Positions 1 to 16,389 of a stretch of 64,000 nucleotides of DNA are shown in pieces. The stretch is from Leeuwenhoekiella nanhaiensis (lineage in GTDB: Bacteria; Bacteroidota; Bacteroidia; Flavobacteriales; Flavobacteriaceae): positions 124,001 through 188,000 of the forward strand of contig NZ_KZ319293.1 of assembly GCF_002744755.1 (NCBI RefSeq). Reading direction: 5' to 3'. The position numbers and the translations under genes were made by a program. Every line of letters starts with the position of its first letter. Positions within the stretch are counted from its first letter, which is position 1. Under the pieces are notes generated by a model. That model did not search any database and had not been told where the DNA came from. It saw only the letters and a program-made list of their open reading frames with translations.

Positions 1-962
1 ACATCTGCCATCAAAAAGGTAGGGTCATTTTTTGCATTTTGTATTCGCTTGTTAAGATCGTTACCTGTAACTCCTATCTTGTGGAATACCTCCCTATTTT
101 TAATGATCAAAGGATTCTTAGAATTAGATCGAAGCACGTAAATAGTACCACTCTCTAAATCATCATCCTCAAGTTTATCTGAAAATAAGGGACCCAAACC
201 AGGTTGAGTAACAAAACGACTTGTTTCATCTTTATACATTGCTCTAATTAGCGAACGTTGCAATAAGTCATTCTCAGTACCATTATCGTAAATAACTCGT
301 AAACGAGCATCTTCTTCGCCATTTGGAGCCTTAAATATCTCCCCCTTCTCAGCTATATAGGCCATTTGTCCCTTTACGATAACAAAAAGATTTTCTTGAA
401 TAATAGTTTTAGTAAAACCGGCATCTTTCCTAAAACGAACAGTTTCTCTATAACCATTTTCTATTTCCTTCTTAGTCCTATCAAAAAGCGGTTTAAAGTT
501 TTCAAAATCTTCGCAAACAGTTCTATTTGCAAATTCCTCATTGGCTCGCTTTTCAGCTCTTGTTCTTACATATTTGAGATTAGTAATAGAATATTCATCC
601 TCCTCTACTCCCAATAGTTCTAATAACTCATCGTCATCTACGTCATCTGAAACAGCAACTGGTTCATTTATTTCTCCAGATAAGATACCCTGATAATCAA
701 GTTCCGTTAATAGATCAATGAACTCTTTTTTCCCTTTAATTTTCTCTAGTCTGACAGCATATAATCTTTCAAAAATGTCATTCCCTTCACCGTGAATCGG
801 TAGTCGCTTTTGTTCCTCTACAAATTTTTGTATTTCTTCAAAACCAGCAATAACACGCTCTTCTAAAGCAGTATATGTAACTTCCTTTTTTTTCTCAACA
901 TCGACACCAAGAGCTGCCAATAAAGCTTCATCCTCAGATGTAAATTTCTCCTTCTTAGCCAT
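1..962 (-). CDS. GIY-YIG (T5orf172) nuclease family protein, partial (3' end outside window)
   Basis: This reading frame is open from an ATG at 960-962 to the window edge, giving about 320 residues with no stop, so the C-terminus is missing. The last visible residues (GTIYVLRS, then KIGVT, KRIQNA, DPTFLMADV) match the start of the T5orf172 branch of GIY-YIG endonucleases, which cut DNA. The N-terminal 250 residues are acidic and helical, with an opening rich in Lys and Glu. Its start overlaps the stop of the helicase gene by 8 bp, so it is the third gene of the methyltransferase-helicase operon. I infer it is the nuclease of a restriction-like defence set. The catalytic Glu and Asn would lie beyond the window, so activity cannot be judged. 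Confidence 0.75.
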   Translation of the reverse strand, partial: MAKKEKFTSEDEALLAALGVDVEKKKEVTYTALEERVIAGFEEIQKFVEEQKRLPIHGEGNDIFERLYAVRLEKIKGKKEFIDLLTELDYQGILSGEINEPVAVSDDVDDDELLELLGVEEDEYSITNLKYVRTRAEKRANEEFANRTVCEDFENFKPLFDRTKKEIENGYRETVRFRKDAGFTKTIIQENLFVIVKGQMAYIAEKGEIFKAPNGEEDARLRVIYDNGTENDLLQRSLIRAMYKDETSRFVTQPGLGPLFSDKLEDDDLESGTIYVLRSNSKNPLIIKNREVFHKIGVTGNDLNKRIQNAKNDPTFLMAD

Positions 963-3006
963 TTTGTTCTTCTGATTTTTTTCTTGCTAAATAAGCAATT
1001 CCCTGGGCCATACGCTGTTCCCAAGGGTCCGCAGAATTAATATCTGGCAATCTTCCTCGCTCGTTTTTAAATTTTAAAGCTCGTTTGGCCAGATCTCTTG
1101 CTTCATCAAGAGTAATATTTGGTTTTCTACTTGAAATAACCTCCGCCATAGCTTTTAAGCTCTTTTCAGTCATTGCTTTAGAAAGTATGGAATAAGCTTC
1201 GCTGAATGGATTTATACTATCTATCCAATCCACATCTAGATCTCTAACATCCATAGTAAATTTCCTAATACCATCTATTAGGGCCGTATTAGCTTTCAAA
1301 ATTTCCCCTCCGTCATTGTTTATAGATTTTTTAGCCATTTGAGTTATATTAAGAGCAGCGATAGCGTGTTGTCTAATGGCCTCAATATCTTCATCATCTA
1401 TATCTGGATATTTGTCTTTTATGATTTTCCCTAGTCTTACTTGCGTTAATTCCTGAGGAACCAACTCTTCATCGAACAAGCCGCGACCAATTGAATCTTT
1501 ATCCTGTGCAAAAGCTGCAATTACCTCATTCAAGTCCTCTTTACAAATACGCTTTGCATCTTCGCTTTCAGGCATTGCTAAACCTTTAATTTCTATCTGA
1601 TATTCTCCTTTCTCTTCATTCCAGCCAACATTTTCTTTCTCAGGATCGTAGCCTCCCGCACCGTAATCGTAACCTTCCTTCTCTTTACTTTGAGAGTTTT
1701 TAGGTGTGAAGTTGAACTTTGGAGCCAAAACTTGTTCCATTAATAAACTGGCTGAAATAGCCTTTAATGTATCATTTACAGCATCGGTAACAGAATCTTC
1801 TGAAGCATCTACTTCTGCTATTAGATTTGTAAATCTAGCTTGTGTTTTATTTGGAGCATCTCTTGTTGCTCGTCCTATAATTTGTACAATTTCAGTTAAA
1901 CTGGAACGGTACCCAATAGTTAAAGCGTGTTCACACCATATCCAATCAAAACCCTCTTTTGCCATTCCCAGGGCGATGATAATGTCCACGTAATCGGGGT
2001 TTGTTTTTATTTCTGGCATCTTAAGTGCAGCCTGTACTAACGGTCGCTTTGAAGGGTCATCGTCCACCAGATCTGCAACTTTTATTACTTTACCCGATTC
2101 TGTTTTGACTTGATGAAAACCAGTAGCAGTATCTACTCCTAGCCATTCTCCAAGCTCTTCAATAATATGCTCAACCTCTTTAATTTTATCACCCATACTT
2201 TCCCTAGAATTGACGTTAGGGATATGAATGATTGTCTTTTCATTCGGGCTAAGTACTTTCAGCAGATCATCAGCATAAGCTCCACTATAAAAATAGTAAC
2301 CAATATTCAGCGTTTTTAAATGCTCATACCCACTTAATTGTTCATAGTAGGTATAAGTGACTGGTTGAAATTTCAACTCATCATCAGGCATTAGAACCGG
2401 ATTTGCATCACCTCTAAAATAAGAGCCCGTCATAGCTACAATATGAACCTTATCTCTCTCAATGAACTCTTTTAGCTGCGAACCTAGTACATTGTTTTCA
2501 TTTGAACTTACATGGTGAAATTCATCTATAGCTATTAATGTATTATCAAAAGCTTCAATACCAAAACGCTCTACCGCACGACGAAATAGAGCGTGTGTAC
2601 AAACCAGAACTTTATCTTCACTCTCAAAAAAAGCTTTTACAGAATTTACCTTACTTCCATCTTCTCCTGGCGAATTACATAAATTCCATTTTGGTGTAAC
2701 TTCCCAATCAAAATAATATCCATATTTAGATAATGGTTCATCATTAAAACTGGAACCTATAGATTGTTCAGGCACAGCAATTATAGCTTGCTTAACACCT
2801 TGATTATTTAATTTATCTAAAGCTATAAACATCAAAGCACGGCTTTTACCAGATGCAGGAGGTGATTTGATCAACAAATATTGCTCCCCTCGCTTTTCAT
2901 AGGCAAGCTCTTGCATAGCACGCATTCCTAATTCATTAGACTTAACAGAACTGCCATTAGTATTATAATTAACAGTTATAGTAGGTATATTTTTTTTCGT
3001 ACTCAT
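955..3006 (-). CDS. DEAD/DEAH-type superfamily 2 helicase
   Basis: This 683-residue protein carries the ordered motifs of an SF2 DNA helicase or translocase. Walker A is PPASGKS at residues 49-55, the Walker B variant is DEFH at 161-164, motif III is TGSYF at 193-197, and motif VI is IGRATR at 377-382. The C-terminal 280 residues are helical and specific to this group. Its start is 2 bp from the methyltransferase stop, and its own stop overlaps the start of the GIY-YIG gene, so the three genes should be co-translated. By analogy with type I and III restriction enzymes, it probably supplies ATP-driven translocation to the nuclease. DEFH in place of DEAH/DECH is an acceptable variant. Confidence 0.85.
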   Translation of the reverse strand: MSTKKNIPTITVNYNTNGSSVKSNELGMRAMQELAYEKRGEQYLLIKSPPASGKSRALMFIALDKLNNQGVKQAIIAVPEQSIGSSFNDEPLSKYGYYFDWEVTPKWNLCNSPGEDGSKVNSVKAFFESEDKVLVCTHALFRRAVERFGIEAFDNTLIAIDEFHHVSSNENNVLGSQLKEFIERDKVHIVAMTGSYFRGDANPVLMPDDELKFQPVTYTYYEQLSGYEHLKTLNIGYYFYSGAYADDLLKVLSPNEKTIIHIPNVNSRESMGDKIKEVEHIIEELGEWLGVDTATGFHQVKTESGKVIKVADLVDDDPSKRPLVQAALKMPEIKTNPDYVDIIIALGMAKEGFDWIWCEHALTIGYRSSLTEIVQIIGRATRDAPNKTQARFTNLIAEVDASEDSVTDAVNDTLKAISASLLMEQVLAPKFNFTPKNSQSKEKEGYDYGAGGYDPEKENVGWNEEKGEYQIEIKGLAMPESEDAKRICKEDLNEVIAAFAQDKDSIGRGLFDEELVPQELTQVRLGKIIKDKYPDIDDEDIEAIRQHAIAALNITQMAKKSINNDGGEILKANTALIDGIRKFTMDVRDLDVDWIDSINPFSEAYSILSKAMTEKSLKAMAEVISSRKPNITLDEARDLAKRALKFKNERGRLPDINSADPWEQRMAQGIAYLARKKSEEQNG

Positions 3007-3008
3007 TT

Positions 3009-5756
3009 TTAGTTTTTGGAAGTCATTTTGGTATACAGTTCAAACAATTTTTCTAAACGCTCTGTGTCATTTTTAAATTTACGGCCTATGTATATTCGCT
3101 CTAAAACCTCATCATTACGTTCGTGTGCTAGTTTTAAATCTTTAGGCATTTTCTCAGGGTCGTATAAAACAGCAATAGTTGCCGGGAAATGTCGTTCTCT
3201 TGCTATTAAAATTTCTTCTGCACAAGCTGATAAATCCTCTTTATTCTTTTGGGTTAAAGATGGCAAGGGAAATGTATTCCAGCCCAAAGTATTTGAATAT
3301 CTTAGTCGCGTTTCCAACTGTCCACAAATAGTTTTGATCCAAATCAAATGAATTTGTGAAGAGAGTATAGAAAAATTCCACATTGGAGCATCATATAAAC
3401 CAAATGCAGCATTAGTTAAAACTGAATTTTCAATTGCAGGAATTACTGTTAGGTAATCTCTTTTCTCTGAAGATACACTTGGCACGATAAATATTCTTTT
3501 CCCTTTATAAAAGCGGACCTCAGAGAATTTATAAGGATACAGAGCTAAATCCTTAGTAGTTTTCTTTTTACTTTTTAATCTATAGCTTTTAACTTGATCA
3601 ACCCTCTTTTTTATTAATGGAATATTGTCAATTGTTTTCAAATCTTTCTCTTCAATCCAAAGGCAATATCTTTTCTTACCCTTTATTGCATCTTCTGCAC
3701 TCAAATAAGGGTAAATAAATTTAGCAGAGCGAGAGTCTAATTTTATTATTTTTCTCTTTTCCTGTGAATCAAAATTTAGAAATTTTCCATCAGCTGCCTT
3801 ACTTCCGTAGTGCATTTCGGTTAAATCAGAAGATAGAACTTTAGACTTTTTTTGAACAATTACTTTAAAATCAGGGATTAAATAAGGATTAATATATTCC
3901 GTGATTTTTTCTTGAACGTTTCCATCATCATTTTGAGTATAAATCTTTAATCTATCATCTTTTGCATTAGAAATTCCAACAATTACTACCGTAACACCTG
4001 CATTATGAGCTGCGAGATTTTTCCATTTGAATGATACATGCGCAAAAGAAATATGATACCCTAAATTAAAAATGTAAGGCCAAAGAATTGGTATATGTAG
4101 CCCTTGATTAATAGAATTAGTAGATACGAAAGCACTTTTAGAAGGTGTGATCAAACCATATTCTGCAGCCTTAATAAACCAACCACTTACATAGTCAAGA
4201 GATTTATAGTTCTTAATTTTAGAAGATAAAAGATCTCTTAAGTCTCTTTTCATTTCTATAGTTTGCTCTGATGAGCCTTTATATGGGGGATTACCACAGA
4301 TATAAGTTTCACCACCTTCATTTTCAAAATCAATCTCTGCCTGTTTTAGGGGTGTCGAGAATAGATCATCTCCTAGTAATTTCACTCCAATTCCAGTTGG
4401 AGGACAAACAGACAGCCAATCAATTTTTAATGCATTTCCTTTGGTTATCCAATTTTCAGCATCTAATGGCAGAAACTCAGCAAGTGCCAAGCGCTGACCC
4501 CTATACAAAACATCACATTGATATTCAGCAATAATTAACGCTAGACGTGCTACTTCTGCTGAAAAATCCTTAAGCTCAATACCTCTGTAATTGGTTAAAG
4601 GTATTTCACTCGCTTTGTTAGTTTCTCCTCTTTTAATGTTAATCTCGTTTTCAATTTTCCGCATTTCTTTATATGCGATTACCAAGAAATTACCGGAACC
4701 ACAAGCTGGATCAAAAACACGTATATGAGCCATACGGTTACGAAGATTTAATAGTTTGCGATTGTTATCGCCGGCCGTTTCTAATTGATCTCTTAGATCA
4801 TCTAAAAACAGTGGATTTAAAACCTTTAAAATATTTGGTACAGACGTGTAATGCATACCTAGTGAACCGCGTTCATCTTCGTCTGCAACCGCTTGTATCA
4901 TTGAACCAAAAATGTCTGGATTAATCTGCTTCCAATCCAGACTACCTACGTGTAATAAATAGGATCGTGCGATTTTAGTGAACTTTGGTACTTCTATAGA
5001 ACCTGAAAAGAGTTCACCGTTTACATACGGGAAATCTTTGGCCCAGACTTTTATATTTTCATTTTCCCGATTCCGCTTCTTGGTGTCCATTGCTCTGAAC
5101 ATCTCACTTATTACTATGTGTGTATCTGAAGCATCTGATGCACTAAATTTTTGAACTGTATTTGTAAAAAGATTGTCTTGAAAAATATCTGTATCCTCAG
5201 CAAAAAAGCAAAAAATTAACCTTGCTAAAAAGTGATTCATATCTGGGCGACGCTCCATTGTTGCCCATTCTGGATTATGTTGTAATAACTCTATATAGAG
5301 TTTATTTAAACGACTAGTCGCCTTAATATCAAATGCACTTTCACGAATTTGCTTTACCGTTGTAATATTTGCTAGTGAAAGAAAAAAGCCAAAATAGTTG
5401 TGAAAATCCTTATAATCACAGACTACTGTTTCCCCAGTAAGCATATTCTCAGCCTGAAAATCTTTACCGTCTGTAGCTAATATGAATTCCGCCTTATTTT
5501 TTTTAGTTGCCGGGCTATTACGAAGTGCTTCTAATGATTGTATTACCTTTCCCTCTTTACTTGCAAGGATGTGTATATTATTTCGCTGTAAAACAGCTCC
5601 TTCTACATCGGTTTTATTCGAAGTTCCACTTTTTATTTTTTTTATCGTTGTACTTTTATTACCGAACGCTTCTAAAAAAGAAAAAGGAAATTCCTCTGCC
5701 TCAAAAGGTTGTTGTGCAAGATCTGATACTGCCTCTTCTATTTCTACTGGATTCAT
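3009..5756 (-). CDS. MmeI/YeeA-like N6-adenine DNA methyltransferase
   Basis: This 915-residue class I SAM-dependent methyltransferase has SAM-binding motif I DPACGSG at residues 349-355 and catalytic motif IV NPPY at 489-492, which together indicate adenine-N6 methylation. A helical spacer (about 170-340) precedes the catalytic domain, and the C-terminal 350 residues should hold target recognition. That order is the MmeI layout. The MmeI N-terminal nuclease motif (D...ExK) is not evident in residues 1-165, so cleavage is probably done in trans by the helicase and GIY-YIG proteins downstream. It is the first gene of the leftward operon, divergent from an HTH gene 72 bp away. I infer self-protection and target choice for a restriction-modification system. 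Confidence 0.88.
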   Translation of the reverse strand: MNPVEIEEAVSDLAQQPFEAEEFPFSFLEAFGNKSTTIKKIKSGTSNKTDVEGAVLQRNNIHILASKEGKVIQSLEALRNSPATKKNKAEFILATDGKDFQAENMLTGETVVCDYKDFHNYFGFFLSLANITTVKQIRESAFDIKATSRLNKLYIELLQHNPEWATMERRPDMNHFLARLIFCFFAEDTDIFQDNLFTNTVQKFSASDASDTHIVISEMFRAMDTKKRNRENENIKVWAKDFPYVNGELFSGSIEVPKFTKIARSYLLHVGSLDWKQINPDIFGSMIQAVADEDERGSLGMHYTSVPNILKVLNPLFLDDLRDQLETAGDNNRKLLNLRNRMAHIRVFDPACGSGNFLVIAYKEMRKIENEINIKRGETNKASEIPLTNYRGIELKDFSAEVARLALIIAEYQCDVLYRGQRLALAEFLPLDAENWITKGNALKIDWLSVCPPTGIGVKLLGDDLFSTPLKQAEIDFENEGGETYICGNPPYKGSSEQTIEMKRDLRDLLSSKIKNYKSLDYVSGWFIKAAEYGLITPSKSAFVSTNSINQGLHIPILWPYIFNLGYHISFAHVSFKWKNLAAHNAGVTVVIVGISNAKDDRLKIYTQNDDGNVQEKITEYINPYLIPDFKVIVQKKSKVLSSDLTEMHYGSKAADGKFLNFDSQEKRKIIKLDSRSAKFIYPYLSAEDAIKGKKRYCLWIEEKDLKTIDNIPLIKKRVDQVKSYRLKSKKKTTKDLALYPYKFSEVRFYKGKRIFIVPSVSSEKRDYLTVIPAIENSVLTNAAFGLYDAPMWNFSILSSQIHLIWIKTICGQLETRLRYSNTLGWNTFPLPSLTQKNKEDLSACAEEILIARERHFPATIAVLYDPEKMPKDLKLAHERNDEVLERIYIGRKFKNDTERLEKLFELYTKMTSKN

Positions 5757-5827: not shown

Positions 5828-6139
5828 ATGAAAACCACTACTATTGTTACTACTGAAATTTCTATCGATGAATTAATCGAACTAATTTCTGACAAGTTGA
5901 TTGATAAAATAGAGCATTACCTAAAAGATGTCAATAAATCTCAGAATGATTTGTTATTGACTAGAAAGGAAATTGCAAAATACCTTCGTGTCAGCATCAC
6001 TACAATTCATCACTGGATGGAATATGAAATACTAGATCCTATTAGAATAGGTAATAGGGTGTATTTTAAAAAGCAAGACATTCTTGATTTAGTTGAAGAA
6101 AGAAAACATTCAAACTTGACGAGACTAAAACGACCTTAA
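5828..6139 (+). CDS. Excisionase/MerR-type helix-turn-helix protein
   Basis: This 103-residue protein has an N-terminal helix (residues 10-40) followed by an HTH_17-type winged helix. The visible pattern is LTRKEIAKYL, then TTIHHWM, then IGNRVYFKKQDIL. Such proteins serve as excisionases or small DNA-binding regulators in Bacteroidota mobile elements. It is divergent from the methyltransferase operon and could control it. It resembles the HTH protein at 8581-8868 in size and in the IGNR wing, so two related DNA-binding proteins belong to this island. The choice between regulator and recombination directionality factor is open. Confidence 0.8.
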   Translation: MKTTTIVTTEISIDELIELISDKLIDKIEHYLKDVNKSQNDLLLTRKEIAKYLRVSITTIHHWMEYEILDPIRIGNRVYFKKQDILDLVEERKHSNLTRLKRP

Positions 6140-6352
6140 TATCGCGGTTAATCTAATAGTTGTAGCCAATAGCCAAGCGGCTGAAACCGGGAGCGGTAAA
6201 TGCGGTTATTTAAACTCCGGCGGCAACCTGCAATATCCCGTATATTTTTAAGCCGCGGTTTACACTATTCTTACGGCGGCCGCTAGCGGCGGTAGTTTGA
6301 TAAATTGCGGCATCAGGGCCGGCTTGTTTCCAGTTTTTAAGCGGTAGGCGGC

Positions 6353-6386
6353 GGTAATTATTTAAACTGCGGCTGACGACCTGCGG
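6353..6386 (+). repeat. Exact 34-bp direct repeat, copy 1
   Basis: This 34-bp stretch around TATTTAAACTGCGGCTGACG is identical to 6495-6528 and forms the best conserved core of the repeat units. Degenerate versions occur near 6204 and 6648. Confidence 0.9.
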
Positions 6387-6494
6387 CAGGCATTGTGCCG
6401 CAACTCCAAATTTTACTGGAACAGAGCAAGCCGCTAACTTCATAAAATAAGATTTAAAAGCGGCCATAGCCGCGGCTTGTCGGCGTCAGGCGGT

Positions 6495-6528
6495 GGTAAT
6501 TATTTAAACTGCGGCTGACGACCTGCGG
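6495..6528 (+). repeat. Exact 34-bp direct repeat, copy 2
   Basis: This is the second identical copy, 142 bp downstream of the first. The sequence on its 3' side diverges from copy 1, so the TGCGGCA/TGCCGCA hairpin that follows copy 1 is only partly kept here. Confidence 0.9.
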
Positions 6529-6933
6529 TAATAACTGTGCGACAATTCAATATTTTTCTGCGGCATTATATGCCGCTAGCTTGAAGTTAAATCAAATGCA
6601 AGCGGTAGAAGCGGCGGCTTGTTTGCTGTTTTTAAGCGACAGGCAGCGGTACGTATTTAAGTTGCGGTTAGTATTCACGGCAAGCACTATGCGGTTATTT
6701 TATAGTGTACCGCGGCTAAATTTACCGCTAGCCCCGTGCTAATTAAATATACAAGCGGCAATAACTGCGGCTGATCTAGGGTTAAGCCGCTGGTAATACG
6801 CCGCGTATCATAATCCGCGGCCAGTCTAAATGATAATCATGCGAAATTTACCCACAGTAGCTTTATAGTCTTTAAAGCACCATTCTTTTTCACACAAGTA
6901 AGCTTATTCTGAAGGCTTAGTATAGGGTTTAGC

Positions 6934-7030
6934 GTTGAATTGTTGAATTCTATCCTAAGGCATTGAATTCTCACATAAATACATTCAACAATAATCTCAA
7001 CAATTATTGAAATTTCTTGTTGAACATAAA
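6934..7030. other. A+T-rich segment with repeated TTGAAT/ATTCAA and TTGTTGAA motifs (possible origin or operator)
   Basis: TTGAAT occurs at 6935, 6943 and 6963, and its complement ATTCAA at 6983. TTCAACAA and TTGTTGAA follow up to 7026. The segment sits just beyond the 3' end of the primase-helicase-type gene and next to the GCGG array. Iteron-like clusters near a replication ATPase suggest an origin, but no experiment or homology supports this, and TTGAAT is not rare in A+T-rich DNA. Confidence 0.35.
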
Positions 7031-7061
7031 TACCCCACTAATACTAAGGCAGTAATCTAAA

Positions 7062-8270
7062 TCAACTTTTCAACAAGGAATTGACAAATTCTTTTTCAAA
7101 CGTAATGAACCTACCCTTCCTGGCCTCACTTTGTTTTATCCAAGGACTTTTTGATGATGGCGAATGCAGTTTAAAGTAAAAAAAGTAACTGCTATTTTTT
7201 GTAGAAAGCCCCCAGCTGCCTTCTATTATTCTTTTAAGATCACTTCTAGTGATTCGAATATTACTTTCTTTCAATTCAGTCAGTAAATCTCCATAGGTGA
7301 GCTTGATTTCTTCCTCTTCAAAATCATCAAATTTATCTTGTAACAAAATAATTAGCTCCTTCTCCAAAAGTTGCCTGGAGCCATTGATCAATTTATCTAG
7401 TGCTTCCGTCCAAAGCTGTGATGCCGTAAACCACATCCTACTAGACTTTTCGTGTTGAATAGATCTGGTATTAAGAAAAGACACAAAACCATCAACTTCA
7501 TTTTTTAAATCTCTAATAAAATTGGGGTTTGCATTTTTTAAAACCGGAATTTTTCTAACCCAGTATCGTACTTCTCCCCTATCTGTAACTACAAAGTCTG
7601 TTTCGTGATTTGAACAAAGCACCAATTTGCCGAAAAAATGGGATTCAACTTTATCTTTTCCTTTAGCTTCTGTTTTAAACGATACTGCGGTCGATAAATA
7701 TTTGATTTTTTCAGAATCCTCGCGGCTATTAAACATTACTTCCTCAATACCAATAATCAACTTTTCCGACCAGTCAGAATTAAATTTACTTCTAAGATCC
7801 TGGACCTTATTGATCGTCATATTTTCGTCAAACACTAATTTTAACCAATTTAAAAAAGTGGTTTTCCCTGTCTCTCGTTCGGTACTTACTAAGCATAAAA
7901 TGGGTAACACCTGGGTAGGATAGTGCCATAATATACTTAGGTAATCAAGACCGAGTAGTATTTGTTCTCCAAAAATATGATGTAGAAAGGAAATCGTATT
8001 GGGTATTTGTGTTTCGTCTACTCCGTCTTGTATAGTATGATTTAAAGCCTTGTATTTATTGTAAAAACCCTTGACCTCTTGCTTATAATCTACGTGTGAG
8101 GGTATATTAATAAAGCCTTCATATTTTTTTATAGATTTCAGAAAATCTCTATCGTGATCATCTATTATGGTCTGCTTATTCCAGGGTATAATGGTTTTGC
8201 TCAGTTCCTCATTCAAATCTGGCATCTGTACGACTTTGTAATATTCAGTTCCTATTCTCAAATATTTCAT
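7062..8270 (-). CDS. Primase-helicase-type P-loop ATPase of the mobile element
   Basis: This 402-residue protein has a P-loop with K136 in ERETGKTTF, a Walker B segment IGIEEVMF at 174-180, and a sensor-like strand LVLCSNHE. This arrangement is that of superfamily 3-like helicases (D5/DUF5906 type) found in phages, satellites and integrative elements of Bacteroidota. These unwind DNA at an origin during element replication. The C-terminal 120 residues resemble a winged-helix tail. It is the last gene of a tight operon, its ATG overlapping the preceding stop by 4 bp. No primase active site is visible, so helicase or packaging-type ATPase activity is the safer reading. Confidence 0.7.
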   Translation of the reverse strand: MKYLRIGTEYYKVVQMPDLNEELSKTIIPWNKQTIIDDHDRDFLKSIKKYEGFINIPSHVDYKQEVKGFYNKYKALNHTIQDGVDETQIPNTISFLHHIFGEQILLGLDYLSILWHYPTQVLPILCLVSTERETGKTTFLNWLKLVFDENMTINKVQDLRSKFNSDWSEKLIIGIEEVMFNSREDSEKIKYLSTAVSFKTEAKGKDKVESHFFGKLVLCSNHETDFVVTDRGEVRYWVRKIPVLKNANPNFIRDLKNEVDGFVSFLNTRSIQHEKSSRMWFTASQLWTEALDKLINGSRQLLEKELIILLQDKFDDFEEEEIKLTYGDLLTELKESNIRITRSDLKRIIEGSWGLSTKNSSYFFYFKLHSPSSKSPWIKQSEARKGRFITFEKEFVNSLLKS

Positions 8271-8584
8271 ACCATCAGTTTAAAATTTATAAAACCAAGC
8301 TTTGAAGAATCAAGTTTTTCCTTAAACTGAACCTGGATAATTACACCTGAAAGGCTATTGTCCATCTTGTATACTTCATTTACGGCCTGCTCAAAATTGA
8401 CGTTGCTAACACTCGGTTCTTTGCGAAGAACTAACTTCAAACCTTCAACTATTTGAAATAAATGCTCAAGAGAACTTAAAATACTTTTAGATGGATTTTT
8501 TAATTCAACGCATCTGTTGATTTCATACTCCATCTGGTCAAGATATTTCTCAAATAAAGGATATACTGTGACATATTGTTTCAT
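8267..8584 (-). CDS. Small hypothetical protein of the mobile element
   Basis: This protein has 105 residues and I do not recognise a family. The first 65 residues look helical (YLDQMEYEINRCVEL, SILSSLEHLFQIVEGLKLVL) and the rest looks like beta strands. There are no signal peptide, membrane segments or metal-binding motifs. It overlaps both its neighbours by 4 bp, between the HTH gene and the P-loop ATPase gene, so it is translated together with them. A role as a partner of the ATPase in replication or mobilization is inference from position only. Confidence 0.65.
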   Translation of the reverse strand: MKQYVTVYPLFEKYLDQMEYEINRCVELKNPSKSILSSLEHLFQIVEGLKLVLRKEPSVSNVNFEQAVNEVYKMDNSLSGVIIQVQFKEKLDSSKLGFINFKLMV

Positions 8585-8868
8585 CTTCGATATTTTAAAG
8601 ATTTCACTTCCTTTATAGAGTCTTCGAACTTTTCCCGGTTGATAATAATTCTATTACCAATACGGTCAGCTTTGATCAAGCCTTTCTTAATGTAGTTTCT
8701 AATGGTAAGCTCAGACACTTTTACAAGTTGCGCGGCTTCCTTAACAGAAAGGTTAGTAGATTGTTTTTCTGTTCTTGATTTCTGTTTGTAATACTGATCT
8801 AGTGATTGTACTACAGAGGTCTTTACTAATGCTTCCAGATCCTCCTGATTTGTTACTATAATTTTCAT
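8581..8868 (-). CDS. Excisionase-like helix-turn-helix protein
   Basis: This 95-residue protein has an HTH_17-type DNA-binding domain: LSVKEAAQLVKVSELTIRNYIKKGLI, then the wing IGNRIIINREKFED. It opens the operon that runs leftward through the 105-residue protein to the P-loop ATPase. In flavobacterial integrative elements such a protein near the integrase commonly acts as a directionality factor or controls the replication genes. A run of four TTGAAT motifs lies 110-135 bp upstream and could be its binding site. It is related in layout to the HTH protein at 5828-6139. Confidence 0.8.
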   Translation of the reverse strand: MKIIVTNQEDLEALVKTSVVQSLDQYYKQKSRTEKQSTNLSVKEAAQLVKVSELTIRNYIKKGLIKADRIGNRIIINREKFEDSIKEVKSLKYRR

Positions 8869-9018: not shown

Positions 9019-9684
9019 TTATATTATTTGACTAAAAAGCTTATCTATTTTCTCTTTCATTTGAGGTTTATTTATTGCGCTTTCATAATCTCTAATGTGT
9101 CTTTTAAATTGGGTAGTATCCATGTAGCCATTTTTCTCAACCTCTATAATCACCCGGTTTTTAAGCCATTTCTTATATTCTAAATATTTATATTCATAGA
9201 AATTCCCTAAACACGATAGGAAATAGCCTAAATCATCTCTTGAAAGTTTACTATTTATTAAACTAAAATTTAATTTTCTTTCAGATGAGTTGTTTTGGAT
9301 AGAATAACAAAAATCTCCAAATGTACTTTTGTATACATTATTACTTTTCAAAAAATCATAAACCTTTTTGAAAAACGGTAATCTATCTCCGAAAACATAT
9401 TCTTGGAATAAGGCTGCTTCAAAAAAGACATATTTACTTTGATAAAATTCTAAATTAGATACTGCTAATTGTTTGGCAATTTGCTCTTTTTCGATTTGGA
9501 TTTTTAAAGATGATATCTCTTCTTTCTGCCTTTCGATTTTTTTTCTAAGATTTATTAAGTCGGGAGTTTTATTACTTTTCAATTCCTCGTATTCACTTCG
9601 TAGAACTACGTGTTTCATTAGTTCTTGATAAATTCCTTGTTTAATAAGCGTCTCTTTAAATTGATCCTCTGTTAATCCTTCCAT
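9019..9684 (-). CDS. Coiled-coil protein of unknown function next to the integrase
   Basis: The start is placed at the ATG at 9682-9684, which gives 222 residues and falls 1 bp beyond the integrase stop. An upstream ATG would overlap the integrase by 32 bp. Residues 35-90 form a probable coiled coil (LINLRKKIERQKEEISSLKIQIEKEQ). The remainder is helical, rich in aromatic and basic residues, and has no motif I recognise. Because it follows the recombinase directly, it is presumably co-transcribed with it and may assist integration or excision, but that is context only. Confidence 0.65.
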   Translation of the reverse strand: MEGLTEDQFKETLIKQGIYQELMKHVVLRSEYEELKSNKTPDLINLRKKIERQKEEISSLKIQIEKEQIAKQLAVSNLEFYQSKYVFFEAALFQEYVFGDRLPFFKKVYDFLKSNNVYKSTFGDFCYSIQNNSSERKLNFSLINSKLSRDDLGYFLSCLGNFYEYKYLEYKKWLKNRVIIEVEKNGYMDTTQFKRHIRDYESAINKPQMKEKIDKLFSQII

Positions 9685-9685
9685 C

Positions 9686-10948
9686 TTAATTCCACGTATT
9701 TTGCATAGCACGTTCACGGCTACTTTGAGTTAACTTAATGTACTTTTTAAAACTACTATAGCTCTTGTGCCCTGTAATACTCATTACAATTTCAGGTCGC
9801 ATACCTTTATCAAGAGAGATCGTTATAAAAGTTCTTCTAGCGGTATGGGTACTAATACGCTTATACATTGGCATCCTTTCCTCTATTCGCTCATTACCGC
9901 GATATGTTGTTTTAATAGTGTCTTTATTGAAACCTGCGAGCTCACAGGCATCTTTTATATACTCTCTGAATTTTTGAGAGCTAATTTTTGGCAAAGCGTA
10001 ATTGTATTTCTCAAGAATGAATTTGGAATATTTATTCAGTGGAATACCTAAATTATTTTTTTGCTTTTGTGAGTTACGATAAATGTGATTATTACGAATA
10101 TTCTCACTGGTTATCTTTGAAAAATCAGAATAGCGCATACCGGTAGCACAACCAAAAATAAAAACATCACGCACCCGCTCAAGACTTGGCTTTTTTGATA
10201 AATCAAATTCAAATAATTGGTTTAATTCATCTATACTTAAGGCTATTTCATCCGTTTCACTCCTGGGTTTTTCAAAGCCTTTAAAGGTGTAATTATGATG
10301 AAAACCTTTGCCGCCAGCCCAATTCATAAAAGTTTGAATAAATCCAATATTTCTGCCTAGGGTATTATCCTTATGCTTTAGTGTCTTCCTACTATACTTC
10401 ACAAAAGCCACGTAAAAATCTTCATTAATAGAGGAGAATGTCAATTTATAATTTGAGGATTTCTCGAATTCCTGTAAAACCTCTTTAATGTTTTTATAAC
10501 GCTGTATTGTGCCGCCAGCTATTTTGGCCAGATCTACTTTCTCTTTTACAAAATCATCGAATACAGGAAAAAATGAATTTGGAGCAAGTGTATTTTTTTT
10601 AAACTCGTAATTGAGTTCCTTTTTTACAGCGGCCAGGCTTACTACATCACCTTGCATTTCTAGCCGCCCGCAGATCATTTGAAAAGTTTCTGAGTAACGG
10701 GATAATTGATTAATAATAGAATTAATTTGCACTGCAATATTGCTTCTACCAGGCAAACGATTAGGAAACTTACTTTCATTATTCCAGTATTTAGGATGAA
10801 TTGATTCACCCGTTGAATACTTTAAATACTTTCCTTCATTTTTAAAATATGCTCTTAAGTATATTAACGTAGGTCGGTTGCTTTTGGGTTCTTTAAGATT
10901 GAAAGTACAACTATAACTCATAATGTTGAGGGGCATAATTAGGGGCAT
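9686..10948 (-). CDS. Tyrosine recombinase (integrase)
   Basis: This 420-residue phage-type integrase has an arm-binding N-terminal domain (residues 10-60), a SAM-like core-binding domain (about 125-225) and a C-terminal catalytic domain. The catalytic set is R272 (ATGMRYSDF), H368 and R371 (STHTARR), H394 (ITGHKSY) and the nucleophile Y403. Two other in-frame ATGs exist. The one ten codons in (MSYSCTFNL) matches the usual family start, while the first has a better A-rich leader. The gene reads away from the tRNA-Ser fragment at 11,061, about 110 bp upstream, the usual layout of an integrase beside its attachment site. Confidence 0.93.
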   Translation of the reverse strand: MPLIMPLNIMSYSCTFNLKEPKSNRPTLIYLRAYFKNEGKYLKYSTGESIHPKYWNNESKFPNRLPGRSNIAVQINSIINQLSRYSETFQMICGRLEMQGDVVSLAAVKKELNYEFKKNTLAPNSFFPVFDDFVKEKVDLAKIAGGTIQRYKNIKEVLQEFEKSSNYKLTFSSINEDFYVAFVKYSRKTLKHKDNTLGRNIGFIQTFMNWAGGKGFHHNYTFKGFEKPRSETDEIALSIDELNQLFEFDLSKKPSLERVRDVFIFGCATGMRYSDFSKITSENIRNNHIYRNSQKQKNNLGIPLNKYSKFILEKYNYALPKISSQKFREYIKDACELAGFNKDTIKTTYRGNERIEERMPMYKRISTHTARRTFITISLDKGMRPEIVMSITGHKSYSSFKKYIKLTQSSRERAMQNTWN

Positions 10949-11060: not shown

Positions 11061-11082
11061 GTTCGAATCCCTCTTTCTCCGC
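11061..11082 (+). other. Attachment site: duplicated 3' end of a tRNA-Ser gene
   Basis: The segment starting GTTCGAATCCCTC has the T-loop, the 3' strand of the T-stem, the acceptor 3' strand TTTCTCC and a G discriminator, as expected for tRNA-Ser. The bases before it (AAAATAGTAAAAA) cannot form the other halves of these stems, so it is not a complete tRNA. This is what a site-specific element leaves at its far border after inserting at the 3' end of a tRNA gene. The tRNA's own terminator follows directly. Confidence 0.82.
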
Positions 11083-11083
11083 A

Positions 11084-11118
11084 AAAAGCCCCGTTATCGC
11101 AATGATGACGGGGCTTTT
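11084..11118 (+). terminator. Rho-independent terminator behind the tRNA-Ser fragment
   Basis: An 11-bp perfect stem, AAAAGCCCCGT (11,084-11,094) with ACGGGGCTTTT (11,108-11,118), encloses a 13-nt loop and runs into further T residues. It probably served the original tRNA-Ser gene before the island inserted. Confidence 0.85.
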
Positions 11119-11244: not shown

Positions 11245-13356
11245 TTATCGTTTTCTGAATAAACCATCCAACCTTTGCACTTTGGGTTTAGTATTTAGGC
11301 TCCAGCTAAAATTAAAAGGCATTCCCGAACTGTGGTTAGTTTTAAAATAAATTCGAATGGGGTGTAATCCTTTTTTGAGTGCAATTTTGGTTTCAAGGGT
11401 TTCATTTGATTCATAATTAAAATCTCCGTCAAAAAGCAGTGCTTTATGAAGTCGTACTACTCCTTTACCCGCTACCTTGAAATTAAAAGTATAGCTACCC
11501 TCTTCCGGGATTTGAATATAGGCTTCTATAAGGTATAAACCGGCTTTCAAATTTTGCAAATCTGAAAAATCAGACACATTTTTTTGGTTAGCAGAATGCA
11601 TAAGATCGAGCTTGGGAAGCCAAGTGTATTCTCCTTCAAATTCTTTCAGCATAAAACCTCTGACTACCTCAAAATCCCTTAGAGCAGGTACTGGTATATC
11701 ATCATAAGGCCTGGGGGCTGACGTGTCTTTTATTCGCAACTGCAATACCTCCTCTTTCATCATCTGTTGTAGGGAAGCCAGAGTATCTAAGCCTGACAGA
11801 TCAAGTGTCTGCTGCTTATCTTTGGTCACATCATAAATCTCAAAATCAGCATCGGCAGCTTTCACATCATAACGCAGGCCCACGTAATTCCCCTTTCGCA
11901 ATAGTTGCATTTGGCCACGCTGCCTGTTTTGATTCTTTTGTGCAAATTCCCTGTATCCCGGGGTCTTACCATCCTGAAAGTATTCAACGTAAACCAAGCT
12001 CTCGGGCTGATCTCCCTTGCCGGTTAACGCCGGAAGCAGTGAAGTTCCATCTGTATTTGCTGGTGGCGTTAATCCTGCCGCTTCCGTAAATGTAGGTAAC
12101 CAGTCGTAAAAGATACTGGGTGATTCTACTACTTTATTTTTAGCAATCTGGGCCGGCCATCTTACAATTAAGGGTGTTCGCAGACCTCCTTCAAGCACAT
12201 CTCTTTTGATTCCGTCAAAAGGACCAAAACTGTTGAAGAAGTCCGGAGTATTTTCTACATATCCCTCGGGTAAATAGGATTCTCTGGACGGACCATTATC
12301 GGATGTAAAAACAACCAGGGTGTTTTCATCGATATCCAAATCTTTCAATAATTTAAAAATATCACCTAGTGCATCATCTATTCTGCGAACACTGGTAGCA
12401 TAGCGTTTATAGGTCTCAGGCCAGACTACTTCGGGCGTTTCTCGATTATTATCGTGATCGTAAGTGGCCTTCGCATAATCAGGATGTATATACGAGTCTG
12501 GTGTACCACTCGCCGTGTTGATCATTTTTCCCACTTTGCCCAGCCATTGTAATCCGCCATCAAGTCCACCCCCTTTCGGATATTCCTGAGTGGGCAATTC
12601 AAGTACCGCGTGCGGTGTATCGTAGGATAAAAACATAAAAAAAGGTTTGTCATCTTCCTTCACCTGTTCTGTAATCCATTTTTTAGCTCTTGCAGTCCAT
12701 AAATCAGCCGTGTAGGATTTGTCAAGACCGGTATTGATCGCTGTAGTATTTTCATATACGGTTTTAGGGCTTCTGTAAATACCTTCGTTGGGATAGTGCT
12801 CGTGACCATCGCCGTGGCGCATATACCCATAAAAATAATCAAAGCCTCTGTTTAAGGGCTGTGCAGGCCACGAATCTCCATTTTCAGACCATTTAGCGCT
12901 GCATTTCAACCCGTATTTCCCAATTAATGCAGTGGTATATCCCGCCTGCCGCAAGACGCTTCCCAAAGTATGATTATTGGCCAGTGCTTTATCAAATTGA
13001 TTATCCCTAACGTTAGCATGGCCCTGACTTAAACCACTAAGAAGAGAAGCACGGGAAGGCGCACAAACCGGTGCAGGCACGTAGTGATTGGTAAGCATCG
13101 CACCCTCGTAAGCCATTTGGTCTAAATGAGGTGTTGCCATCCAGGGTTCTGAATCGTCTCCTCTATTCCTTCGTTCATTTTGAAAAAATACGCCTACATC
13201 CCCATAGCCTAGATCATCAACAAGGATAAATAAGATATTTGGCTTTTCGGCCTTTTGCACCGGCTTTTGCTGGCCGCAAATTGTTTGGCTAAAAAGAATA
13301 ATCAAAACCAAAAAATACAGATTGGGAAGGTATTTCATCTGTACGTGTAAACTCAT
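11245..13356 (-). CDS. S1 family sulfatase with C-terminal PA14-like domain
   Basis: This 703-residue secreted sulfatase removes sulfate esters from glycans. The alpha/beta core starts with metal-binding VDDLGYGD near residue 47, and the C-A-P-S-R motif places the Cys to be converted to formylglycine at C98. Residues about 575-700 (YTWLPKL to the end) look like a PA14/jelly-roll carbohydrate-binding module, absent from the other five sulfatases here. A signal peptide is clear if translation starts at the seventh codon, also an ATG. The first ATG shares one base with the stop of the upstream sulfatase, suggesting coupled translation. It is the last gene of the leftward sulfatase run. Confidence 0.92.
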   Translation of the reverse strand: MSLHVQMKYLPNLYFLVLIILFSQTICGQQKPVQKAEKPNILFILVDDLGYGDVGVFFQNERRNRGDDSEPWMATPHLDQMAYEGAMLTNHYVPAPVCAPSRASLLSGLSQGHANVRDNQFDKALANNHTLGSVLRQAGYTTALIGKYGLKCSAKWSENGDSWPAQPLNRGFDYFYGYMRHGDGHEHYPNEGIYRSPKTVYENTTAINTGLDKSYTADLWTARAKKWITEQVKEDDKPFFMFLSYDTPHAVLELPTQEYPKGGGLDGGLQWLGKVGKMINTASGTPDSYIHPDYAKATYDHDNNRETPEVVWPETYKRYATSVRRIDDALGDIFKLLKDLDIDENTLVVFTSDNGPSRESYLPEGYVENTPDFFNSFGPFDGIKRDVLEGGLRTPLIVRWPAQIAKNKVVESPSIFYDWLPTFTEAAGLTPPANTDGTSLLPALTGKGDQPESLVYVEYFQDGKTPGYREFAQKNQNRQRGQMQLLRKGNYVGLRYDVKAADADFEIYDVTKDKQQTLDLSGLDTLASLQQMMKEEVLQLRIKDTSAPRPYDDIPVPALRDFEVVRGFMLKEFEGEYTWLPKLDLMHSANQKNVSDFSDLQNLKAGLYLIEAYIQIPEEGSYTFNFKVAGKGVVRLHKALLFDGDFNYESNETLETKIALKKGLHPIRIYFKTNHSSGMPFNFSWSLNTKPKVQRLDGLFRKR

Positions 13357-14930
13357 TATTTTAACTCCAGTTCTTGTACTTCAGTCGTCGTTTTACCGCG
13401 TATGCTCTCGTAAATCGCTTTCAACTCCTCCAGCTTTTCCGGATTGCTTTCAGCTAAATTCATTTGCTGTCCTAAATCTTCAGACAGATTATACAATTGA
13501 TTCTGTTTAGCATTACCCAACTCAATATTGACTTGCTCAGCAACCGCAACGCCATTGTAGGGAGGAATAAATATCCAATCACCTGATCTTAACGCGGTAC
13601 GGCCTGTGGCCTCCAGAATAAGATTGTCTCTGCCCTCCTGACTTTCGCCTAAAAAAGTCGTCAATAAATCCTGACTGTCTTCCCCGGTAATCGTACTGCC
13701 CACCAGATCTGCAAGCGAACTCAACAAATCTATCTGTGAAACCACCGCATCACTGGTTTGTGGCTTAATAGTCCCCTGCCAGTAAGTCGCAAAAGGTACA
13801 CGTGTACCGGCTTCAAACAGGCTGTATTTACCACCACGTAAATCACCTGCAGGTTTATGATCGCCTAATTTTTCTACCGCATCGTCGTAATACCCGTCGT
13901 TTAAAACAGGCCCGTTATCGCTGCTTAAAATGATGAGTGTATTTTCTAAAAGGCCTTCTTCTTCTAAAGTTTTGAGAAATTCGCCCACACACCAGTCGGC
14001 TTCCAGAATTACATCTCCACGGGGTCCCATACCAGACTTGCCTGCAAATTCAGGAGCCGGAGTCCTGGGTACGTGAGGTTGCTGTAGCGCGTAGTATAAG
14101 AAGAAGGGCTTGTCTTTATTAGATTTTACATAGTCCTGAGCTTTCGACAAGAAATTTTCGGCCATTTGCTCATCTACCCATTTTGCCTGCTCTCCGCCTT
14201 TCATAAAACCTATACGCGGAATGCCGTTTACGATGGAGCTGTTATGCCCGTGATGCCATTTCATCTTCAACAGTTCCGGATTGTCCAGACCTGTGGGTTC
14301 TCCCTCAAAGTTTTTATCATAATCAACCTGAATAGGATCATTTGGGTCGAGGTTTTCTACCCTTCCATTTTTGATATAAACCGTGGGAACCCGGTCCTGA
14401 GTCGCCGCCATAATATAGCTATACTCAAAACCTACCTCATTAGGCCCCGGGGTAATTTCTGCATTCCAATCAACGTTACCGTTACCCAATCCCAAATGCC
14501 ACTTTCCTACAATGCCGGTTTGATACCCCTGCTGCTTCAGCATTTTGGGCAGGGTCATTTGAGCGGTGTCAATAAGTAAAGGAGCAGTTCCCGGAAGAAT
14601 TTTAGCATTCTCATTCCGCCAGGGATACATTCCTGTCAACAGAGCAAAACGGCTTGGGGAGCAGGTTGCCGAAGACGCATAGCCATTAGTAAACTTAACT
14701 CCACCATTCACCAATCTATCCATATTGGGCGTCTGCAGCGCTGTGGCACCATAAGAAGTAAGATCGCCATAGCCTAAGTCATCAGCATAAATGATGATAA
14801 TATTGGGTTTGGCAACCGTTTCTGGCATTACTTCCTGCTTTTTCTCTTCGTTTTTACAACCGAAAAAAGTAAGCATTACGAAAAAGGCTGACAGATAAAA
14901 TAGATGTTTTTTTGGTATTCTCATAGTCAA
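13356..14930 (-). CDS. S1 family sulfatase, lipoprotein
   Basis: This 524-residue sulfatase has a lipoprotein signal (LTFFGC, C25), metal ligands in ADDLGYGD near residue 50, and active-site C90 in CSPSR. KWHLGLGNG and IGFMKGG segments are shared with the sulfatase at 26,806-28,386, and the two are close in length, so they are probably paralogues of one subfamily. It lies between two other sulfatases, 13 bp after the upstream one. The lipobox suggests membrane anchoring, so it may act in the periplasm or at the cell surface. The sulfate position it attacks cannot be assigned from sequence by eye. Confidence 0.92.
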   Translation of the reverse strand: MTMRIPKKHLFYLSAFFVMLTFFGCKNEEKKQEVMPETVAKPNIIIIYADDLGYGDLTSYGATALQTPNMDRLVNGGVKFTNGYASSATCSPSRFALLTGMYPWRNENAKILPGTAPLLIDTAQMTLPKMLKQQGYQTGIVGKWHLGLGNGNVDWNAEITPGPNEVGFEYSYIMAATQDRVPTVYIKNGRVENLDPNDPIQVDYDKNFEGEPTGLDNPELLKMKWHHGHNSSIVNGIPRIGFMKGGEQAKWVDEQMAENFLSKAQDYVKSNKDKPFFLYYALQQPHVPRTPAPEFAGKSGMGPRGDVILEADWCVGEFLKTLEEEGLLENTLIILSSDNGPVLNDGYYDDAVEKLGDHKPAGDLRGGKYSLFEAGTRVPFATYWQGTIKPQTSDAVVSQIDLLSSLADLVGSTITGEDSQDLLTTFLGESQEGRDNLILEATGRTALRSGDWIFIPPYNGVAVAEQVNIELGNAKQNQLYNLSEDLGQQMNLAESNPEKLEELKAIYESIRGKTTTEVQELELK

Positions 14931-14943
14931 TAAATATAGCTTA

Positions 14944-16389
14944 TTAATTCGTTGTGAACCGGTTAGGATTTTGCCTGCTGTACAGCTTATCCTGTAAAAG
15001 ACCCAAAAAAACAGGGTCTTTCATCTCCATATTCCAGATGCTGTACTGTTTTTTAAGGGAGCGGGAATCTTCGCTACGCTCCTTTAAAATCGAATTGGTT
15101 TCTCCCAAATCGTGTTGAAGATCGAAGAGATAGGATTGGTTTTTCTGAATCTCAAACTTCAAACCGTTAGCAGCCCGAACCGCATACTCTTCCTGATCAA
15201 ATTTTCTCCAAAATAAGTACGGGTGCGGATCTCCGGAGTTCGCTTCGGTCAAGTAAGGTATTAAATCTACTCCGTCAAGCGTATTTTTGGTTTGAATAGG
15301 TTCTGAGGTTTGATTTATGGCAGTCGCGAAAATATCCAGGGCACTTATAGCCTTTTCGTAGGTTTTTCCACCTTCAAGGCGAGCCGGCCAGCGCAAGGCA
15401 AAGGGTACGTGAATTCCACCTTCAAACAAATCGCCCTTTTCCCCTCTCAATAGGCCGTTATCTGAAGCATTAGCGTGCTCCGGGCCACCATTATCTGAAA
15501 GGAAAAAGACGAGGGTATTGTCTGCAAGTTTTAGCGAATCTAAGGTCTCTAAAACACGGCCCACGCCATCATCCATCGCGCTTACCATAGCCGCATAAAT
15601 TTTGCGTTTAGGATCTTTGATGTGATCAAAACGTTCCACGTACTCCGGAGTAGCCTGTAAGGGAGCGTGCGGTGCATTGTATGCGAGATACATAAAGAAT
15701 GGAGCATCCTTATAGTGCTGAATATAGTTAACCGCTTCGCGCGAAAGGGCATCAGTAAGATATTCGGTTTCTTCAACGCGGGTTTCGTTGCGCAACAGTT
15801 TGGTATTGTATCCATCATACTGCGTGCGGGCCTCGGTAAGATCATTAAGCGTCCACAACTCCGGAAGGTATTGATGTCCTCCGCTTAAAAACCCAAAAAA
15901 ATCAGTAAAGCCTCTTTTGCGAGGTACCAGTGATTCGTGTGCACCCATATGCCATTTTCCAAGCGCGACCGATTTGTAACCTACTCTACCGAGTGCATCG
16001 GCTAGAGTTTCTTCACTTAAAGGCAAACCCATTTTGGGATCATTAGGAGCTAATAATGGGTTTCTACTAAAGCCAAATCGATCCTGATACCTGCCGGTTA
16101 AAATACCGGCGCGACTGGGTCCACAAACCGCATAGCTTACATAGGCGTTGGTAAATTTTACACCTTCTCTGGCAATACGATCAATGTTTGGTGTGGGGAT
16201 ATCTGTACTGCCATTGAAACCCACGTCCGCATAACCCAGGTCATCTGCGAGAATGACGATTATATTAGGCTGCGTTTTTAAGGCCTGAGATTCAGCATCC
16301 TGAGCAATGAGTTTAGGTGTAAAAAGCAATACACCTAAAATAGTTAGACTTAAAAAATGGAATGATTTACGCATAAACGAATGAAGCAT
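14944..16389 (-). CDS. S1 family sulfatase, secreted
   Basis: This 481-residue sulfatase has an N-terminal signal peptide ending near LIAQ (residues 27-30), a metal site LADDLGYAD near 47, and active-site C89 in CGPSR, followed by AGILTGRYQDRFG. The same RYQ/KYQ-RFG context appears in the sulfatase at 35,906-37,342, so these two may belong to related subfamilies. An ATG five codons downstream gives a more typical signal peptide and may be the true start. It opens the three-sulfatase run, 54 bp after the Asl1-type glycosidase gene, with a terminator hairpin in between, so read-through or a very short promoter region must serve it. Confidence 0.92.
   Translation of the reverse strand: MLHSFMRKSFHFLSLTILGVLLFTPKLIAQDAESQALKTQPNIIVILADDLGYADVGFNGSTDIPTPNIDRIAREGVKFTNAYVSYAVCGPSRAGILTGRYQDRFGFSRNPLLAPNDPKMGLPLSEETLADALGRVGYKSVALGKWHMGAHESLVPRKRGFTDFFGFLSGGHQYLPELWTLNDLTEARTQYDGYNTKLLRNETRVEETEYLTDALSREAVNYIQHYKDAPFFMYLAYNAPHAPLQATPEYVERFDHIKDPKRKIYAAMVSAMDDGVGRVLETLDSLKLADNTLVFFLSDNGGPEHANASDNGLLRGEKGDLFEGGIHVPFALRWPARLEGGKTYEKAISALDIFATAINQTSEPIQTKNTLDGVDLIPYLTEANSGDPHPYLFWRKFDQEEYAVRAANGLKFEIQKNQSYLFDLQHDLGETNSILKERSEDSRSLKKQYSIWNMEMKDPVFLGLLQDKLYSRQNPNRFTTN

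Follow-up and report, generated by a model that had tools for sequence, protein, structure and literature searches.

An array of GCGGY sites beside a putative replication origin in an integrative element of Leeuwenhoekiella nanhaiensis

Introduction

What is the role of a non-coding region in which one short word is repeated dozens of times, although the DNA around the copies is ordinary and A+T-rich? Such a region is present in Leeuwenhoekiella nanhaiensis. We analysed 64,000 nt of this genome (contig NZ_KZ319293.1, positions 124,001-188,000, forward strand), referred to here as the window, and all coordinates below are positions in the window unless stated otherwise. An initial annotation had described the region as a tandem array whose units keep two anchors in register while the sequence between them drifts, and had suggested that it might be a structured RNA, an origin of replication or transfer, or a recombination hot spot.

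Results

The array lies inside an integrative element at a tRNA gene

We found a 41-bp perfect direct repeat, matching the 3' part of tRNA-Ser(tga) and its tail, at 11061-11101 and again 1.3 kb to the left of the window (G000:C7:122664). Therefore, the array sits inside an integrative element of 12.4 kb at tRNA-Ser. The element begins with a tyrosine integrase (9686-10948, minus strand; Pfam PF00589, PF13102 and PF17293), followed on the same strand by a 232-aa protein (9019-9717; no Pfam match, similar proteins in loci L028 and L095), a 95-aa HTH_17 protein of the excisionase/AlpA type (8581-8868), a 105-aa protein (8267-8584; no Pfam match, similar proteins in L028, L103 and L108) and a DUF5906 or D5-type helicase (7062-8270; PF19263) that is the putative initiator. 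Next come an iteron region, the array, and a second HTH_17 protein of 103 aa (5828-6139, plus strand), whose gene ends 4 bp before the array. The cargo follows: an MmeI-like type IIG restriction-modification enzyme (3009-5756, minus strand), a DEAD/ResIII helicase (955-3006, minus strand) and, to the left of the window, a T5orf172 protein and then a putAbiC protein. The array is located, as annotated, between convergent genes, with the 103-aa HTH_17 gene ending at 6139 on the plus strand and the DUF5906 gene ending at 7062 on the minus strand. Directly outside the element, at 11245-16389, are three consecutive sulfatase genes.

The array adjoins, and is distinct from, a putative origin

Directly after the DUF5906 stop codon, GTTGA/TCAAC iterons are present in two sets (6934 and 6942; 6985, 6997 and 7019) that flank a stretch of 71% A+T. 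The origins of PICIs, in a passage of PMC6092414, lie immediately 3' of the initiator gene and have two iteron sets flanking an A+T-rich region. By this organisation, the iteron region at 6934-7023 is a putative replication origin of the element.

Similar regions are common after DUF5906 genes. Four or more GTTGA/TCAAC or TGATGA/TCATCA words were counted in the first 350 bp past the helicase stop at 48 of 58 loci (window included), compared to 25 of 2140 other 350-bp tiles from the same loci. Among the ten loci below four words, the L122 sequence breaks off at the stop, and the others carry fewer words, other words (such as CTACA in L115 and CAACAA in L118) or no clear word. The GTTGA and TGATGA words are each found in more than one branch of the helicase tree described below. 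The iteron regions after DUF5906 in L028-L042 and L094-L131 are probable replication origins.

The array is about 100 bp from the iteron-rich region. There is no GCGG or CCGC in 6831-7061 and no GTTGA or TCAAC in 6144-6830. That is, each word is absent from the region of the other, unlike in a simple duplication of the iterons. A replication origin is thus the closest of the roles first suggested: the array adjoins a putative origin, but is not itself that origin.

The array word is GCGGY and its decayed copies are not enriched

The initial annotation had estimated about 40 GCGG/CCGC tetramers. We counted 42 in the 687 bp from 6144 to 6830, with 31 GCGG on the plus strand and 11 on the minus strand (binomial P 0.003). 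The densest other 687-bp window in the 64 kb has 13, and dinucleotide shuffles of the segment (n=500) have 13.0 +/- 2.9, with a maximum of 23. The site is followed by C or T in 41 of 42 cases, compared to 184 of the 340 sites in the window outside the array, and so the array word is GCGGY. Most GCG triplets in the array (42 of 47, counting both strands) extend to GCGG, and GCGC is absent, compared to 13 expected from shuffles. The G+C content is 0.48 in the array and 0.33-0.34 in the adjoining DNA. With the tetramers removed, it is 0.326; that is, the rest of the array is ordinary A+T-rich DNA like its neighbours.

Decayed copies of GCGG are not enriched in the array. Neighbours that differ from GCGG by one mismatch number 66, compared to 89 +/- 7 and lower than in all 500 shuffles. 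Outside the sites there are 18 near-miss tetramers, compared to 20.4 +/- 3.6 in shuffles, a slightly loose comparison as the shuffled count takes in GCGG itself. The spacing of the sites is irregular (3 to 77 bp), and a test for helical phasing gave a peak at 10.9 bp that is just below the 95% level of random placement.

The repeat units keep their register by descent

Both anchors are present at the positions first noted. TATTTAA is found at 6207, 6359, 6501 and 6654, and CCGCTA at 6280, 6431, 6573 and 6725, giving distances of 73, 72, 72 and 71 bp. The four drifting units of about 145 bp are also real: cuts at 6177, 6329, 6471 and 6624 give plus-strand units of 152 bp (6177-6328), 142 bp (6329-6470) and 153 bp (6471-6623) and a longer last piece (unit 4, 6624-6776), from which the motif sites run on to about 6820. 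The units are 64-78% identical at aligned bases, and all six pairwise scores exceed every one of 100 mononucleotide shuffles each. TRF reported no tandem array anywhere in the 64-kb window, as expected for units so diverged.

In ordered comparisons of the aligned units, GCGG/CCGC was retained 42 times of 96 and other 4-mers 146 times of 966, the first figure being inflated because the alignment is pulled toward matching GCGG and ordered pairs are counted twice. Of 19 GCGG columns, 12 are present in one unit only. Together, these results indicate that the number and purity of the sites are held while their positions turn over. The annotation had read conserved spacing as a sign of selection. 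The spacing is as described, but it needs no selection because tandem duplication gives register by descent. Constraint is seen in how pure the short motif is, not in the register.

The array resembles neither a structured RNA nor a Chi array

The annotation had also reported that many of the sites form hairpins. There are 7 GCGG..CCGC pairs within 20 nt, compared to 1.05 (maximum 5) in dinucleotide shuffles. This excess is due to the excess of the tetramers themselves: when orientations were shuffled over the real sites, hairpin-forming pairs numbered 7 compared to 7.3, and 5 compared to 7.3. The hairpins thus exist, but not beyond what the density of sites gives. The only excess with shuffled orientations was of the palindrome CCGCGG (4 compared to 0.8).

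A structured non-coding RNA, or a region of transcription end between convergent genes, would suit the location of the array, and some features point that way. The plus strand folds at -241.6 kcal/mol and the minus strand at -206.1 kcal/mol, there is a single terminator-like stem (6460-6473), and 6 of 23 predicted pairs in a four-unit consensus have a two-sided change in at least one unit. However, the fold of the whole array is unremarkable on both strands (z -1.35 and -0.58, 20 shuffles each), as are the folds of single units (z -1.48 to +1.27). Terminator-like sites number 1, compared to 1.4 in shuffles, and covariation contributes a mere -0.44 of -15.46 kcal/mol. A search of Rfam found no family at gathering score, and all sub-threshold matches were outside the array. 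We regard an RNA role as very unlikely; a control region to which a protein binds is the more probable reading of the array. The suggested recombination hot spot fared no better. Chi of B. subtilis is AGCGG, and Chi sites are over-represented in the genomes of their own hosts. The GCGG core and the 31:11 strand bias could fit a Chi-like array read by host RecBCD/AddAB in recombination or protection, and GCGGY in the host is strand-biased in several stretches (up to 66 compared to 36 per 20 kb) where GC skew is positive. In a 400-kb sample of the host, however, GCGG is under-represented (2505 compared to 2718 expected, z -5.6, rank 202 of 256), AGCGG is at expectation (726 compared to 728), and TGCGG alone is mildly high (z 3.4, rank 191 of 1024). 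These word statistics largely refute a Chi array, which we consider extremely improbable.

Three further candidates were rejected. The array is not a dispersed repeat of the REP/BIME type, as it is single-copy in its own genome (other blastn matches are at most 39 bp, with E of at least 0.4). It is not a CRISPR array: there is no family of near-identical repeats with regular spacers, and the spacing of GCGG is irregular. The base that MmeI-family enzymes methylate within their site is an adenine. GCGGY contains no invariant A, and by this argument alone we dropped the notion that the array is the recognition site of the MmeI-type enzyme in the cargo.

No homologous array was found in related genomes

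We found no second copy of the array in its own genome (blastn), where the species is represented by a single genome and the comparison genomes are sampled one per species. Searches of 397 genomes of the same family (blastn, two first-look candidates scored per genome) found no homologue. Ten other genomes had matches of at most 49 bp, and the loci with these short matches contained at most 5 GCGG/CCGC per 400 bp. Nothing similar was found in 50,697 phage records, and 72,556 plasmid records gave one 35-bp match only (E 0.6). We also searched for TATTTARNYTNCGG present twice, 120-150 bp apart. There were no matches in viral contigs and four in genome contigs; we read these four as unrelated repeats. 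One of them, L088, is a repeat of 48% G+C with 15 GCGG/CCGC around it.

The array is not tied to either flanking gene. A search of 249 genomes with the HTH_17 gene matched 77 besides its own; the 29 relatives obtained as loci hold no more than 7 GCGG/CCGC per 400 bp, compared to 25 in the window, and the stretches beside 18 relatives of the helicase gene have at most 5 per 600 bp, compared to 37. Separately, L057-L066 and L070 have a conserved non-coding block, GGCTATAAAGGTCAAGCCCTACGGGTTTT...AAACCTTGACAGCC with variation, downstream of their relative of this HTH_17 gene. This block could be an origin of transfer or an RNA. A search of the literature, mostly by narrow combinations of terms that do not establish absence from print, turned up no account of such arrays.

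The helicase belongs to a clade of elements without a detected primase or relaxase

The predicted structure of the DUF5906 protein (mean pLDDT 82, pTM 0.64) matched the C-terminal region of NrS-1 first and poxvirus D5/E5 next; lower down came the SaPI5 primase-helicase (rank 22) and PriRep1 (rank 36). The helicase found no relative in viral contigs, and a sequence search against solved structures gave no match. In a DUF5906 tree of 51 rows, with the root drawn at the midpoint, the window helicase is in a group of 17 rows (support 100/99). We use a set of 18 clade members, comprising these 17 rows and L029, which was placed by identity and iteron word.

We searched stretches of about 5-20 kb around the elements with one set of primase, MobC and MobA queries (tblastn, E <= 1e-4); among these, the queries for primase and relaxase contain CHC2/Toprim and PF03432 domains. 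No homologue was found around any of the 17 rows of the clade. Outside the clade (34 rows), matches were obtained to a DnaG-like primase in 31, to MobA in 22 and to MobC in 18, and the primase match starts 180-308 bp after the helicase stop. The primase-less rows outside the clade are L122, truncated at the stop, together with L115 and L124, where 418 and 581 bp remain before the contig end. Thus, at least the latter two are without a primase at the usual place. DUF5906 integrative mobilizable elements with a DnaG-like primase, MobC and MobA, which we take to be NBU1-like, have the same helicase family as the window element and an iteron region at the same place. They differ in having their own relaxase and primase beside the origin; our searches of the window element and its clade gave neither.

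The members of the clade (the window element, L028, L029, L094-L105, L108, L113 and L114) are small integrative elements without a detected primase or relaxase. We compared the cargo behind the origin to restriction and defence families, using one or two of the larger ORFs there (not always the first) and leaving out L028, L097, L098 and L114. Matches were found in 13 of the 14 members tested: type I restriction in L029, L099, L100, L104 and L105; type IIG or Eco57I-like enzymes in the window element, L102, L103 and L108; McrBC in L094; Drt2 in L095; Avs2 in L101 (a partial match); and a type II methyltransferase in L113. L096 has an SRAP protein, followed by a protein without a PADLOC match.

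Some sister elements have arrays of other words at the same place

For each clade member we measured the stretch from the iterons to the next ORF of at least 100 aa, and called a word enriched at z >= 6 compared to shuffles, a cut-off that we set ourselves for words sought after looking. In ten of the 18 members this stretch is 300 bp or longer, and six of those ten hold an enriched word: AGCCGC/ACCGC in the window, GGTTAA in L103, a 12-mer in L105, TCAACA in L029, AGTTG in L096, and AATGAA within palindromes in L101. The array word of L029 is also its iteron word. The 12 other members have no clear array by the same measure, and therefore an array is not obligatory. In eight of these the next gene lies no more than about 150 bp from the iterons, and the other four, with long stretches (L094, L104, L097 and L098), have z < 5. 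Even so, a 10-bp period is visible by eye in L094, and in L104 a related word comes back some 2.8 kb beyond the stop. By the GTTGA/TGATGA count used above, L097, L098, L100 and L102 (4 of the 18) have fewer than four iteron words. L044, which has a helicase fragment, has a similar array about 2.7 kb away, beside another iteron-like stretch. Higher-order lags are present in several arrays: 142/153 bp in the window, 153/152 bp in L103, 118 bp in L044 and 125 bp in L096.

As a control, the same loci supplied 134 intergenic stretches no shorter than 300 bp. Their best z had a median of 4.0, and the window stretch came seventh (z 9.7). The six stretches above it are two TGATGA iteron regions, the iteron-plus-array stretch of L029, and three other repeat-rich stretches.

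By the terms of the initial annotation, the lack of a homologous array in related islands would count against its reading. By sequence none was found within the scope of our searches, but several islands have non-homologous short-motif arrays at the same place. Short asymmetric words can be read beside the origin in several elements (GCGGY in the window, GGTTWA in L103, TTGGYAA in L094, GTGGTG in L105 and CGGTT in L104). Post hoc and by eye, several may share a GG-pyrimidine core, which does not fit L029 and L096.

Two other repeats were seen. In L105, about 200-630 bp after the DUF5906 stop and beside the iterons, there are about 35 near-perfect copies of the 12-bp CACCACACTTAG. In L028 (4345-4990), about 3.5 copies of a tandem repeat of about 188 bp, with CGAAGC words, precede the integrase.

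Discussion

The best explanation, which we put forward tentatively, is that the array may be an iteron-like, element-specific set of binding sites that acts in cis on the element's own replication. It is favoured because of the purity of the motif, its place in the element, the adjoining iterons and the non-homologous arrays of sister elements. We infer that a protein, from the element or the host, would bind many GCGGY sites, in either strand, next to the origin near DUF5906, and that binding would affect replication of the excised element, helping or restraining it by initiator loading, titration or copy control. This action would be in the manner of the crr region of satellite phage P4. In P4, crr has direct repeats of 100-150 bp with many short sites, adjoins a replicon with a D5-family helicase, and repeats the same iteron as the P4 ori. 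The sequence layout here is alike in having long direct repeats (four units of 142-153 bp) and many short sites (42) near a putative origin (about 100 bp away). It differs in having four diverged units where crr has two, and in that the array and iteron words are not shared. Because the shared word was looked for and not found, we do not classify the array as a crr.

The chief rival is non-functional, minisatellite-like DNA, expanded next to an active origin through slippage or unequal exchange and tolerated at the boundary between replicon and cargo. The words are mostly different among elements that have an array, 8 of the 18 members have no room for one (a gene is right behind the iterons), and slippage can make arrays such as the near-perfect 12-bp tandem of L105 and those with lags of 118-153 bp. 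In the window, however, the units have diverged considerably and yet near-misses are not enriched, and the DNA between the sites is ordinary A+T-rich DNA, although neutral decay should leave many copies one letter off GCGG. The purity of GCGGY speaks against a minisatellite in the window element, and less so in the others, and we regard this account as somewhat unlikely. It is also conceivable, but unlikely, that the array is a recognition site for movement, either an oriT for a helper relaxase or a packaging site for a helper phage, with a word that follows the helper. As the searches around the window element and the other 17 members gave no homologue of primase, MobC or MobA, any transfer would need a helper. 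Element-specific words would suit different helpers, and elements without a relaxase that are mobilised by oriT alone do exist, as a passage of PMC5704250 describes. The phage and plasmid searches argue against such a site, and oriTs are not known to consist of 42 short sites in an array. A decidedly improbable reading is that the clade has lost its primase and relaxase and that, in some members, a rapidly changing array of a short asymmetric word makes up for the loss. Host or helper enzymes might, for instance, use its copies for priming or to load a helicase, and the array would also serve as an element-specific compatibility code.

The region as a whole has likenesses to known satellites. 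The likeness to PICI/SaPI origins (two iteron sets flanking A+T-rich DNA 3' of an initiator-helicase gene, in the same passage of PMC6092414) covers 6934-7023 and not the array, and the element here has no known helper phage. That source, in the part concerned, also names the P4 alpha protein and its cognate ori site. Integrase, HTH_17 and DUF5906, all present in the window element, are among the families that excerpts of PMC10803314 and PMC10111431 give for detecting PICMIs and for sorting genes of gram-negative PICIs, respectively. Those elements, in the same excerpts, are from Vibrionaceae and Enterobacterales, not from Flavobacteriaceae, and have another gene order and other cargo.

If a binding array acting on replication is the right reading, then the array would mark where replication is controlled in a group of mobile anti-phage elements, and both the origin (6934-7023) and the array (6144-6830) would become testable. 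The word bound on the origin side would change from element to element, so that the evolution of replicon identity could be followed directly. What looks like conserved spacing with drifting sequence can conceal a strictly kept five-letter word.
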